A stretch of DNA of 64,000 nucleotides, taken from positions 248,001 through 312,000 of the forward strand of contig NZ_CP029426.2 in NCBI RefSeq assembly GCF_002266435.3. Reading direction: 5' to 3'. This stretch comes from Bradyrhizobium amphicarpaeae. Its GTDB lineage: Bacteria > Pseudomonadota > Alphaproteobacteria > Rhizobiales > Xanthobacteraceae. A program made the position numbers and the translations under genes. Below the pieces are notes generated by a model. The model searched no databases and was not told where the DNA came from. It saw only the letters and a program-made list of their open reading frames with translations. Shown in pieces: positions 59,433 to 63,934 of the stretch; the stretch's first letter is position 1; every line of letters begins with the position of its first letter.

Positions 59433-61259
59433 TTACGCCACCGCTTCCTTGGACTTTTCCGCGCGCTTGCGCTCGTTCGGGTCGAGGTGCTTCTTGCGCA
59501 GGCGGATCGACTTCGGCGTGACCTCGACGAGCTCGTCGTCCTCGATATAGGCGAGCGCCTTTTCCAGCGTCATGCGGATCGGCGGGGTCAGGCGCACCGC
59601 CTCGTCCTTCGACGTGGTGCGGATGTTGGTGAGCTGCTTGCCCTTGAGCACGTTGATCTCGAGATCGTTGTCGCGGGTGTGCTCGCCGACGATCATGCCC
59701 TTGTAGACCTTCCAGCCCGGCTCGATCATCATCGGGCCGCGGTCTTCCAGCTTGAACATGGCGTAGGCCACTGCTTCGCCCTGGTCGTTGGAGATCAGCA
59801 CGCCGTTGCGGCGGCCCTGGATCTCGCCCTTGTACGGCGCATAGCCGTGGAACAGGCGGTTCATGATCGCGGTGCCGCGGGTGTCGGTGAGCAGTTCGCC
59901 CTGGTAGCCGATCAGGCCGCGGGTCGGCGCGTAGAACACCAGGCGGAGGCGGTTGCCGCCCGACGGCTTCATTTCGACCAGCTCGGACTTGCGCTCGCTC
60001 ATCTTCTGCACGACGACGCCGGAATGCTCCTCGTCGACGTCGATCACGACTTCCTCGATCGGCTCCAGGGTGGCGCCCGTGGCCTCGTCCTTCTGGAACA
60101 CCACGCGCGGACGCGACACCGAGAGCTCGAAGCCTTCGCGGCGCATGGTCTCGATCAGGATCGCGAGCTGCAATTCGCCGCGGCCCGAGACTTCCATCGC
60201 GTCCTTGTCGGAGGCTTCGACGACGCGCAGCGCGACGTTGCCTTCGGCCTCGCGCAACAGACGGTCGCGGATCATGCGGCTCGTCACCTTGTCGCCTTCG
60301 GTGCCGGCGAGCGGCGAGTTGTTGACGATGAACGACATCGACACGGTCGGCGGATCGATCGGCTGTGCCGGCAGCGGCACCTCGACGGTCGGATCGCAGA
60401 AGGTGTCGGCGACGGTGCCCTTGGTGAGGCCCGCAATGGCAACGATGTCGCCGGCCTCGGCCTCATCGAGCGGCGTGCGCTCGAGACCGCGGAACGCCAG
60501 GATCTTGGTGATGCGCCCGGACTCGACCAGCTTGCCCTCGGCGTTGAGCACCTTGACCTGCTGGTTCGGCTTCAGCACGCCGGAGGAGATGCGGCCGGTG
60601 ATGATACGGCCGAGATAGGGGTTGGCTTCCAGGATGGTACCGATCATCCTGAACGGACCTTCCTCGACCTTCGGCGGCGCGACGTGGCGCAGGATCAGGT
60701 CGAACAGCGGCTCCATGCCCTTGTCCTTCGGGCCTTCCGGGCTGTCGGCCATCCAGCCCTGCTTGGCCGACCCGTAGAGGATCGGGAAGTCGAGCTGCTC
60801 CTCGCTGGCGTCGAGCGCGGCGAACAGGTCGAACACCTCGTTGATGACTTCGGTCGGGCGTGCGTCGGGGCGGTCGACCTTGTTGATGACGACGATCGGC
60901 TTGAGGCCGACCTTGAGCGCCTTGGAGACCACGAACTTGGTCTGCGGCAGCGGGCCTTCCGCTGCGTCGACCAGCACCAGGGCGCCGTCCACCATGTTCA
61001 GGATACGCTCGACCTCGCCGCCGAAATCGGCGTGGCCGGGCGTGTCGACGATGTTGATGCGGGTGTCCTTCCACTGCACCGAGGCCGCCTTGGCCAGGAT
61101 GGTGATGCCGCGCTCGCGCTCCAGATCGTTGGAGTCCATGGCGCGGTCGGTCACCTTCTGGTTCTCGCGGAACGTGCCGGACTGCTGGAGGAGCTTGTCG
61201 ACCAGGGTCGTCTTGCCGTGGTCGACGTGAGCGATGATGGCGACGTTACGGAGGTTCAT
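59433..61259 (-). CDS. typA: GTP-binding translation factor TypA/BipA
   Basis: A 608-residue ribosome-binding GTPase. It has AHVDHGKTT (residues 10-18), [14 protein letters not shown] and [10 protein letters not shown] as G motifs, an EF-Tu-like domain 2, two EF-G-like domains and the BipA-specific C-terminal domain ([35 protein letters not shown]). It supports 50S assembly and growth under stress or cold. The start [16 protein letters not shown] fits the family. Confidence 0.97.
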
Positions 61260-61497: not shown

Positions 61498-61779
61498 TTA
61501 GCTGCCGTTCCGGGCCGGCGGGGCCTTCCGCCCCTTGATGGCCGCCCAGATCAGGGCGACGCCGCCGATCCCCACCACCAGTCCAAGGAAGACGAACGGC
61601 GCGATGTCGGAAGCGATTTGGCCGCTGTCGGACACCGAAATGCCCCCGAACACGAGCGCGCACAGGCCCGGCAGCAGCAGGATCACCCCCGCTATCACCA
61701 TGAAAGCCGTAAGGCAGCCGCTACGCGCATGGTCCGGCGTGGGCAGAGGCGGCAGAACCGGCGGTGGCGTATCGCTCAT
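61498..61779 (-). CDS. Small two-helix membrane protein (operon with radical SAM gene)
   Basis: A 93-residue protein with a Pro-rich N terminus, two hydrophobic segments (residues 22-44 and 60-81) and a basic Pro/Ala tail. I do not recognise a family. Its ATG overlaps the stop of the radical SAM gene by four bases (ATGA), and GAGGAGG lies just upstream inside that gene, so it is certainly co-translated. It may anchor or present the substrate of the upstream enzyme, but this is inference. Confidence 0.78.
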   Translation of the reverse strand: MSDTPPPVLPPLPTPDHARSGCLTAFMVIAGVILLLPGLCALVFGGISVSDSGQIASDIAPFVFLGLVVGIGGVALIWAAIKGRKAPPARNGS

Positions 61780-63221
61780 TGTGATGCCTCCTCGCTTTGC
61801 CTTGCCTCGCGGTAAGTCTGCCCTTCGAGCCCGGCGCGAATGCCGTCGATCTTTCCGCTGCGGTAGAACAGATTGTAGGTGTCGAACGGAATGATCGCGC
61901 CCTGCTCGGTCACGAAATGGATGCAGCTGCGCTTGACGTTGCCGACGCAGAAATTGAAGCGGTCGAGAAACTGCACGATGGTGACGCGGAAGACGTTCTC
62001 GTAAGAGAGGCCTTCCGGCGCGTTGAAGCTCGGCAGACAGCACAACAATTCGCAGACGCGCTCGCTCGTGTTCAAAGGTCCCGACGACAGCGAGAACAGA
62101 TCGACGAATTTTTCCCGCAGTATCGGATATTTCTCCGGACTGATGGTGTTGGGCATCACGGCGACGAGCTGTTCCTGCGGGATCAGCGAGGTCAGCGGCA
62201 GCACCTTCTCGCCGTTGCGCAGGCCGTAGCCGATCGAGATGCTTTCGGGATTGCAGGGCAGCGGGATCATGTCCTTGTCGCCGAACACCCCGGTCTCGAT
62301 CACGCGCTTGCGGATCTCCGACAGCATGATGCGGTCGGTCTTCTCGTCGAAATTTTCGTTGCGGCCGGCGTCCTGCACCGGCTGCAGGGTGACGCCGCGC
62401 ACGCATGACCAGGTGAGCGCGTGGCGGACGATGTCGCCGATCTCGGTGTCGTTGACACCGCGCTTGATGGTCGCGACCAGTGTGGTCGAAACGCCAAAAT
62501 GCTCGAGATTCTCCAGCGCCTGCTGGCGGATTTTTCGCAAATCCGCGCCGCGCAGGTCGATCAGCGCATCGCGCTGTAATGAATCGAACTGGAGATAGAC
62601 CTCCAGCCCGCGCTTGTTCTCGGCCAGCCGTGCCACGAAATCCTTCTCACGCGCAATGCGCAGGCCGTTGGTGTTGATCATGACGTGGCGGATCGGGCGA
62701 GCGCGTACGGCGTCCAGGATTGCGAAGAAGTCCGGATGCAGCGTCGGCTCGCCACCGGATATCTGCACCAGGTCAGGCTCGCCCTCGCTCGCGACAAGCG
62801 CATCCAGCATCTTCTCGATGGTGGCGAGCGGGGTGAATTTCGTTCGCGCGGGCGAGGATTCGGCGAAGCAGACGGGGCAGGTCAGATTGCAGTGCTCGGT
62901 GATCTCGATCAGCGCCAGGCAGGAATGCTGCTCGTGATCGGAGCAGAGACCGCAATCATAGGGACAGCCGAACTCCGTGCGCTGCTGGAATTGCAGCGGC
63001 CGGTCGCCGGGCTTGATGAAATCCTTGCAGAGGCGCCAATAGGCGGCATCCGTCGACACCAACGTCGATTGGACGCCGTGCTCTTTGCAGCGCTTTTCGT
63101 GCCAGACCTCGCTGCCCAGGATCTGGATCTTGGTCGGCACCAGCTTCAGGCAGGTCTCGCAAAGAGATTGGGTCTGGCCCCAGAAAATATAGGGTCGCGA
63201 CTTACGCAACGGCGCGTTCAT
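61776..63221 (-). CDS. Radical SAM protein of the Tes (MJ0619)-like family
   Basis: A 481-residue protein with multiple metal sites. N-terminal CETC (Cys21, Cys24) and CKEH (Cys45, His48) resemble a rubredoxin-like site; FGCPYDCGLCSDH (Cys86, 90, 93) with Cys101 is a likely extra cluster; CNLTCPVC (Cys111, 115, 118) is the radical SAM [4Fe-4S] site, followed by SGGEPTLHPD. The C terminus has CVGNVKRSC (425, 433) and GAIIPFDTYNLFYR. I know this layout from archaeal tetraether synthase and its bacterial relatives, which join lipid chains; the substrate here is unknown. ATGA overlaps link it to both neighbours. Confidence 0.85.
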   Translation of the reverse strand: MNAPLRKSRPYIFWGQTQSLCETCLKLVPTKIQILGSEVWHEKRCKEHGVQSTLVSTDAAYWRLCKDFIKPGDRPLQFQQRTEFGCPYDCGLCSDHEQHSCLALIEITEHCNLTCPVCFAESSPARTKFTPLATIEKMLDALVASEGEPDLVQISGGEPTLHPDFFAILDAVRARPIRHVMINTNGLRIAREKDFVARLAENKRGLEVYLQFDSLQRDALIDLRGADLRKIRQQALENLEHFGVSTTLVATIKRGVNDTEIGDIVRHALTWSCVRGVTLQPVQDAGRNENFDEKTDRIMLSEIRKRVIETGVFGDKDMIPLPCNPESISIGYGLRNGEKVLPLTSLIPQEQLVAVMPNTISPEKYPILREKFVDLFSLSSGPLNTSERVCELLCCLPSFNAPEGLSYENVFRVTIVQFLDRFNFCVGNVKRSCIHFVTEQGAIIPFDTYNLFYRSGKIDGIRAGLEGQTYREARQSEEASQ

Positions 63222-63934
63222 GCAAGTAACTCGCTTTGTATGGGTCTCGCTTTGGGCGCCGTCGCGAGCATGACGCCGGCGTAGAGCAAAATTGACAGCG
63301 ACAGCAGATGAAACAGGGTGAAGGGGCCGATCAGCGTGCCGTAGGGCTTGAGGAATTCCCACAGGAAGCGTTGCGCTCCATAGTAGACGAGAACCAGGTA
63401 GAAACCATTGGTGATCACAAAGCCGTTCCGGTTCACGACCGCCAGCACATAGAGCAGCGCGAAGGCGGCCATGGCCGCGCTCTCGTAGAGCTGCACGGGA
63501 TGGCGCAGAATGCCGTCGCCAAAATCATGGGCGAAGGGCAGCGCGGTCGGCGTGCCATAGGTGAAATCGTCGAGGCCCGCGAAGTAGCAGCCGAGCCGGC
63601 CGATCGCGATGCCGAGCGCCAGCGGCAGCGCGAAACGTGCGCCGGTTCGCGCGGAAATCCCTGCGGACCATTTGTAGAACTCGATCGCGACGATGCCGCC
63701 GGCGATCGCGCCCTCGACCGAGCGGGCGATGCCGCTCTCGCCCGACAGCCACAGATTGGCGGAGCCGAACAGGTAGGCCCCGAGGCCCGCGCCGAACACC
63801 AGCGCGGCGACATAGGGCAGCTCGAAGGATTGCGCCGGAAACCGCAGGCGCTGTCGCGACAGCCAGTAGACAGCCGCGGCCGCCGCCAGCCATGCGGCAA
63901 TGTCGAAGACGGTGTGAAGGAATGCCCCGCTCAT
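63218..63934 (-). CDS. Lgt-like (prolipoprotein diacylglyceryl transferase family) membrane protein
   Basis: A 238-residue protein with about seven hydrophobic segments. Family features are GRLGCYFAG (112-120), HPVQLYE (145-151) and RFLWEFLK (189-196). Canonical Lgt has GRxGNF and a His in HGG; here the Asn is Cys116 and the HGG place reads EGA (74-76), so this is probably a paralogue, not the housekeeping lipoprotein enzyme. It likely binds phosphatidylglycerol or another lipid. Its stop overlaps the start of the radical SAM gene by four bases (ATGA). Confidence 0.8.
   Translation of the reverse strand: MSGAFLHTVFDIAAWLAAAAAVYWLSRQRLRFPAQSFELPYVAALVFGAGLGAYLFGSANLWLSGESGIARSVEGAIAGGIVAIEFYKWSAGISARTGARFALPLALGIAIGRLGCYFAGLDDFTYGTPTALPFAHDFGDGILRHPVQLYESAAMAAFALLYVLAVVNRNGFVITNGFYLVLVYYGAQRFLWEFLKPYGTLIGPFTLFHLLSLSILLYAGVMLATAPKARPIQSELLA

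Follow-up and report, generated by a model that had tools for sequence, protein, structure and literature searches.

In the 64,000-nucleotide stretch of Bradyrhizobium amphicarpaeae DNA analysed here (the window), three overlapping genes form a cassette that genomes either carry whole or lack whole; they encode a membrane protein of the Lgt family, a radical SAM enzyme resembling Tes and a small two-transmembrane (two-TM) cysteine protein. This trio arrangement is more than chance, because the pair formed by the first two genes is kept together with the small gene in different genera and classes, and exists also in another phylum. Tentatively, and with less than even confidence, we suggest that the three parts act together as an accessory system of the inner membrane, whose product would be a lipid, or a lipid-protein conjugate, modified by radical chemistry.

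Layout and genomic context of the cassette

All three genes lie on the minus strand, in the order Lgt-like gene (63934-63218), radical SAM gene (rSAM; 63221-61776) and small gene (61779-61498), with an ATGA overlap at both the Lgt-like/rSAM and the rSAM/small gene junctions. The earlier note on this DNA had described three minus-strand genes with two ATGA overlaps, and its coordinates (63934-61498) agree with ours.

63218..63934, minus strand: Lgt-like membrane protein gene (238 aa; PF01790, predicted Lgt fold)
61776..63221, minus strand: Tes-like radical SAM enzyme gene, rSAM (481 aa)
61498..61779, minus strand: small two-TM protein gene (93 aa; single copy in the window)

The host genome is a 7.03-Mb single contig, and carries a separate canonical Lgt elsewhere (243 bits). 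The downstream neighbour of the cassette in Bradyrhizobium (59433-61259 in the window) is presumably typA/bipA, and in two other loci (L123 and L125) what we take to be an EttA-like ABC-F protein is encoded near the cassette in its place. That both of these neighbours are translation factors may be due to chance.

Presence, absence and pairing of the genes

Eight other genomes of the same genus (the genus assignment being inferred), drawn from a set of 297, were examined, and the pair is missing from four of them. In each of these four, all three cassette genes are gone from the site, and the flanking typA and the upstream gene, which looks to us like phoD, are both in place. In the closest pair-less genome (G112), DNA similarity ends 96 bp before the start codon of the Lgt-like gene and restarts where the small gene has its last sense codon. 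The cassette is thus naturally testable, as one genus has genomes with and without it.

The survey of gene neighbourhoods that the earlier note had proposed found the two genes side by side nearly everywhere. In the close set of 80 related loci, mostly Bradyrhizobium, the Lgt-like gene is immediately upstream of rSAM in 78, and the two loci without it begin close to a contig end, at 14 and 24 bases. The Lgt-like gene also lies by rSAM in each of the 13 more distant loci retrieved, whose rSAM orthologues have 52-65% identity, with gaps of 446 and 178 bp in L125 and L138, respectively, and with one gene between the two in L140, from a Massilia-like genome. The intervening gene (L140:4835-5653) encodes a protein with Sel1 repeats and a lipobox-like start; in this locus the small cysteine gene precedes the Lgt-like gene. 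Among named database relatives, those nearest to the G445 protein include Massilia, Duganella, Pseudoduganella and Undibacterium. Because typA, which is found in 78 of the 80 close loci, has no match in the 13 distant loci that keep the pair, synteny alone was rejected as the cause of pairing. In the Bacteroidota, a Persicobacter megaplasmid encodes an rSAM of 46% identity, and there the Lgt-like gene, rSAM and a 59-aa membrane ORF overlap in the same order. This small ORF (L142:6383-6562), which overlaps the rSAM gene, has no TM1 PGxC motif and has a Cys14 and a GIC close to its end.

Searches at higher ranks gave the same picture. Within the order, rSAM matches at E<=1e-20 were obtained in 27 of 297 genomes, 14 at identities of at least 58% and 13 divergent at 36-40%; the Lgt-like protein matched in 24 of the 297, 14 above 200 bits and the other ten below 38 bits. 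Within the phylum, rSAM was found in 12 of 398 genomes, all at identities of at least 52%, and Lgt-like matches came from 19 genomes, 12 at 79 bits or more and the other seven below 43 bits. In both searches the genomes with strong Lgt-like matches are exactly those with rSAM (in the order, rSAM of at least 58% identity), and by coordinates the two genes adjoin in all 14 and all 12. The earlier note had named an absence of conserved pairing in relatives as grounds for abandoning its idea; the same 14/297 and 12/398 genomes hold both genes. No Lgt-like neighbour was seen in the seven loci checked from the 13 genomes with divergent rSAM.

The radical SAM protein

Pfam recognizes Radical_SAM and a zinc-ribbon (PF23545) in rSAM, and the same scan of the window protein found no SPASM or peptide-recognition domain. 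The best-scoring curated NCBIfam model for the rSAM proteins tested is TrsS (NF045646; 295-328 bits), to which the window protein scores 297.8 bits against a cut-off of 490. For Tes (NF045702) the window protein reaches 256.9 bits and three distant orthologues 261-285 bits, against a cut-off of 450. Plain identity with TrsS was therefore rejected on its score, and plain identity with Tes on both the curated cut-off and the diagnostic residues described below. L133, with no Lgt-like gene nearby, passes the TrsS cut-off at 588.6 bits.

The best PDB sequence match of rSAM is MjTes (E = 1.7e-58). An AF2 model of rSAM (pLDDT 84, with low confidence at 355-365 and 374-394, reaching the CCLP motif) matches 7tom (MjTes) over its whole length (TM 0.78, E = 5.6e-38, 496 columns), a match that is partly non-independent because 12 Tes sequences were in the model's alignment; the next structure after 7tom and 7tol reaches E = 7e-10 over 219 columns. 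The profile search and structure prediction that had been proposed thus agree with Tes in the predicted fold and not in the curated cut-off. In a tree of 57 sequences, 33 proteins of the cassette rSAM type (gene context unseen for seven, and L080 cut off upstream) form one clade with a support of 100; the tree was rooted on the 14 archaeal Tes, and neither these nor the ten other relatives belong to the clade. In this tree the protein has a clade of its own; a radical SAM clade with a known non-lipid substrate would have spoken against the earlier note.

The rSAM protein has a rubredoxin-like site (C21/C24/C45/H48), an N-cluster (C86/C90/C93/H96) and a radical-SAM cluster (C111/C115/C118). All of the Cys and His positions listed in the earlier note are correct, and C86, C90 and C93 stand as members of its second site; as the fourth ligand, however, His96 is more likely, judging from the alignment, than the C101 it had given. 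His96 is present in 266 of 266 clade sequences and in 120 of 120 archaeal Tes, and Cys is not among the four commonest Tes residues at the C101 position. In this comparison of 266 with 120 sequences (240 of the 266 being database proteins whose gene context was unseen), CX2CX20CX2H, the Tes N-cluster C73/C77/C80 with its His, and CX3CX2C are invariant or nearly so on both sides. Three of the four Tes metal sites are thus kept in the rSAM clade, and the C-terminal site differs. The diagnostic cysteines of the clade are encoded as follows.

62253..62255, minus strand: codon of C323 (PLPCNP), invariant (266/266)
62037..62042, minus strand: codons of C394-C395 (CCLP), a clade-diagnostic pair, both Cys in 266/266
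61923..61925, minus strand: codon of C433 (KRSCIHF), invariant (266/266), one residue after the Tes Cys455 position

CC[LM]P exists in 265 of the 266 clade sequences and in none of the 120 Tes. Tes Met439 is replaced by Val (260/266), Tyr459 by Phe (262/266), Cys455 by Ser (265/266) and the PFC cysteine by Asp or Glu (PFD/PFE; 265/266), this last cysteine being kept in nine of the ten relatives outside the clade. The assumed conserved pair 425/433 does not hold, since C425 is variable (Cys in 157 and Asp in 109 of the 266) and the invariant residues are C323, C394, C395 and C433; nor does the protein end at GAIIPFDTYNLFYR, as had been stated, for it continues 27 residues beyond. The archaeal Tes (MJ0619) layout claimed for it accordingly stands for the fold and the first three sites, and fails for the C-terminal one. 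Which Tes cysteines bind the C-terminal cluster was assigned from conservation, Met439 alone being named in the available part of PMC9433317; on this assignment, the C-terminal cluster site of rSAM appears rebuilt relative to Tes. The accessible text of that paper describes Met439 and Tyr459 as completely conserved in archaeal Tes, and the reaction as going via a sulfur-carbon bond to a cluster (PMC9433317). The rSAM reaction may therefore differ from that of Tes in detail or in kind.

The Lgt-like protein

Pfam places the protein in LGT (PF01790) at 61 bits, above the cut-off of 24.9, whereas its scores against the NCBIfam Lgt models (34.9 of 334, 25 of 428 and 22.7 of 118.9 bits) all fall short. 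Its predicted model gave no Foldseek match at E<=0.001, and a later comparison found 5azb (Lgt fold). The equivalents of R143 and R239, which bind phosphatidylglycerol (PG) in Lgt (PMC4728403, in the part available), are Arg in 17 of 17 aligned family members. The N146-equivalent is Cys in 17 of 17 (C116 in the window protein), and the H103-equivalent is Glu74 in the window protein and Glu or another non-His residue in the family. According to the portion of PMC13251419 available, H103 and N146 are required in E. coli Lgt, conservation of H103 is not absolute, N146C is seen in distant Lgts, and low activity is presumed for a mycobacterial paralogue with N146C. Our open-licence PMC search on the mycobacterial Lgt paralogue yielded that paper alone. 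A conserved H7 near the start of TM1, together with C116, recalls the Y26H/N146C paralogue MSMEG_5408, the alignment at Tyr26 being unsafe.

The small cysteine protein

Little beyond one cysteine is common to the small two-TM proteins encoded by the pair, which constitute a fast-evolving family with sub-threshold Pfam matches only. In the window copy this cysteine is encoded as follows.

61660..61662, minus strand: Cys40 codon of the small gene; the residue (in LLLPGLC) is predicted to occupy the outer half of TM1

A profile search of six-frame fragments at the 93 pair loci detected the family in 91 of them, on the strand of the operon and never on the opposite one; the two misses are L065, which is cut at a contig end, and L079. 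The same kind of search found no member in the seven divergent-rSAM loci. Copies number from one to six per locus (six in L075), with at least two in 44 of the 93. With profile seeds hand-picked after the motif was noticed, and hence biased towards Cys, a single Cys is present in 152 of 153 copies (the window copy counted) and forms the most conserved column, followed by a Gly (94%); its commonest context is PGLC (80/152). The sole copy without Cys, L073:6473-6802, has LVLPLPLVSA. Copies of one locus have a median identity of 34%, yet nearly all keep the Cys, which favours a substrate role. A classical lipoprotein lipobox was rejected, because only seven of the 152 Cys motifs fit the pattern (of the PROSITE type), and PGLC of the window copy does not. 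Lys and Arg are more numerous in the tail after TM2 than in the loop in 146 of 152 proteins, equal in six and never fewer, which predicts that both ends lie inside; a median of 20 uncharged residues before the Cys predicts that it is placed towards the outer side.

Among the 297 genomes, with at most 18 scored candidates per genome, 13 small-protein matches below 1e-6 (in 11 genomes) all lie by rSAM, and the best match away from it is 1.2e-4; two pair-bearing genomes (G068 and G264) gave no match below 0.01, and a third (G135) gave one at E = 0.003. An unselected list of small TM ORFs contains three without the motif (upstream in L125, upstream in L126, and a 53-aa ORF in L129) and none for L072, L079 and L139, of which the profile later matched L072 and L139, not L079. 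In L125, L127 and L128 the small proteins have a greater length, and the profile matches them weakly. On the best reading, the small protein would be a substrate or scaffold; against a substrate role, tandem copies could also be subunits.

Possible function

In the pathway that we tentatively propose, the Lgt-like protein would bind PG at the outer face of the membrane, and would either move the diacylglyceryl group of PG onto the small-protein Cys or present PG to it. The cytosolic rSAM would then take a hydrogen from an acyl tail, belonging either to the attached group or to a lipid close by, and make a new C-C or C-S bond. The result would be a lipid-protein link with a modified tail, perhaps spanning the membrane; the sequence of the steps, the type of bond and the product are all conjectural. 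Pointing this way are three genes that co-occur, adjoin and are absent together, the predicted Tes fold and cofactor layout of rSAM, the predicted Lgt fold with its two PG arginines, and a near-invariant Cys predicted in the outer half of TM1 of a protein with both ends inside. Counting against it are the loss of H103 and N146 from the Lgt-like protein and of Tes Met439/Tyr459 from rSAM, the few lipobox fits, a nearest curated rSAM model that by score is TrsS and not Tes, the Persicobacter ORF without the TM1 motif, and the lack of small-protein matches in G068 and G264. The idea of the earlier note, that the operon modifies a membrane lipid or lipid-linked group, is partly supported: the coupling and the predicted folds speak for it, the changed Lgt H103/N146 and Tes C-site residues against it. 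A more specific version seems improbable: that the Lgt paralogue S-diacylglycerylates the intramembrane Cys (PGxC) of the small, often tandem proteins and that rSAM, with its new C-terminal cluster, joins the tails of that lipid to those of a different lipid or to another copy of the small protein, yielding a covalently membrane-spanning lipoprotein.

The main rival is that rSAM couples or modifies free phospholipid tails in the manner of Tes or Mss, with the Lgt-like protein supplying or orienting PG and the small proteins serving as subunits or anchors whose Cys is structural. The full-length predicted Tes fold, the largely kept PG site of the Lgt family and the failure of most small proteins to fit the canonical lipobox all suit this reading, as does the argument, in the part of PMC13274423 available, that bacterial Mss uses PG-bearing lipids; but a near-invariant Cys is unusual for a mere anchor that evolves fast and is often multi-copy, and in rSAM the site of the C-cluster on which the Tes reaction depends appears rebuilt, so we regard it as possible and somewhat unlikely.

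Small, often tandem and fast-evolving genes adjoining an rSAM gene also recall RiPP systems, in which case rSAM would modify the small protein itself, for example by crosslinking its Cys, and the Lgt-like protein would lipidate or hold it. Since the Pfam scan of the window rSAM shows neither a SPASM nor a peptide-recognition domain, and the Cys is predicted on the outer half, away from the cytosolic enzyme, this is very improbable. It is quite improbable, too, that rSAM has nothing to do with lipids, being instead a small-molecule enzyme of the TrsS type or another, and that the Lgt-like protein serves its pathway in some unrelated membrane task. TrsS gives the top NCBIfam score (298 bits, against 257 for Tes), and none of the relatives outside the clade showed an Lgt-like gene in the loci examined (L144 not among them), L143 and L145 adjoining a methyltransferase gene; yet the score lies below the TrsS cut-off of 490, and the strict coupling to an Lgt-fold protein and to small membrane proteins argues otherwise.

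If the small cysteine protein is indeed the substrate, the cassette would represent a new type of protein lipidation; and if the Lgt paralogue lipidates the Cys and rSAM couples the tails, the outcome would be a novel post-translational lipid modification that depends on radical chemistry.

Comparison with known systems

The earlier note knew of no description of the Lgt-coupled arrangement, and our search of open-licence PMC likewise found none of Lgt coupling, small cysteine proteins of this kind, the rebuilt cluster or the trio. Bacterial Tes homologues, those of Proteobacteria included, have been reported with function unconfirmed, and surveys count them as candidate makers of brGDGT-type lipids (PMC8941075 and PMC11868695, both in the parts available).

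The TrsS radical SAM (seleno)protein (NF045646), which is merely listed in the accessible part of a review (PMC13188914), is the top curated match by score, whereas the cassette rSAM stays under its cut-off of 490 and the TrsS-passing L133 has no Lgt-like gene nearby. In L143 (a Mycolicibacterium plasmid) and L145 (a haloarchaeal plasmid), a Tes/TrsS-like rSAM gene is followed by a methyltransferase gene, and in L143 genes for CcdA and a disulfide oxidoreductase lie upstream. Compared with Lgt (PDB 5AZB), the Lgt-like protein lacks H103, has an invariant Cys for N146 and a shorter arm region in the alignment, and scores far under the NCBIfam Lgt cut-offs, in a genome with a canonical Lgt elsewhere. 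Mss, the bacterial membrane-spanning lipid synthase, resembles the cassette, by description only, in its proposed radical coupling of tails (PMC13274423 and PMC11868695, available parts); it is argued to act on PG-bearing lipids (PMC13274423) and is treated as separate from bacterial Tes homologues (PMC11868695).

The closest known system is Tes, or GDGT-MAS (MJ0619; PDB 7TOL, 7TOM), with which the cassette rSAM shares domain order, the rubredoxin-like site, the N-cluster with its His, CX3CX2C and the full-length predicted fold. It differs in having 27-32% identity to Tes, in forming a separate clade, in scoring under the Tes cut-off, and in its seemingly rebuilt C-terminal cluster site. The clade is separable from Tes by four invariant cysteines, the loss of Met439 and its fixed partners, and should stand apart when membrane-spanning lipids or paleoclimate sources are inferred from Tes. 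Unlike Tes, the cassette rSAM is coupled to genes for an Lgt-like protein and a small protein.
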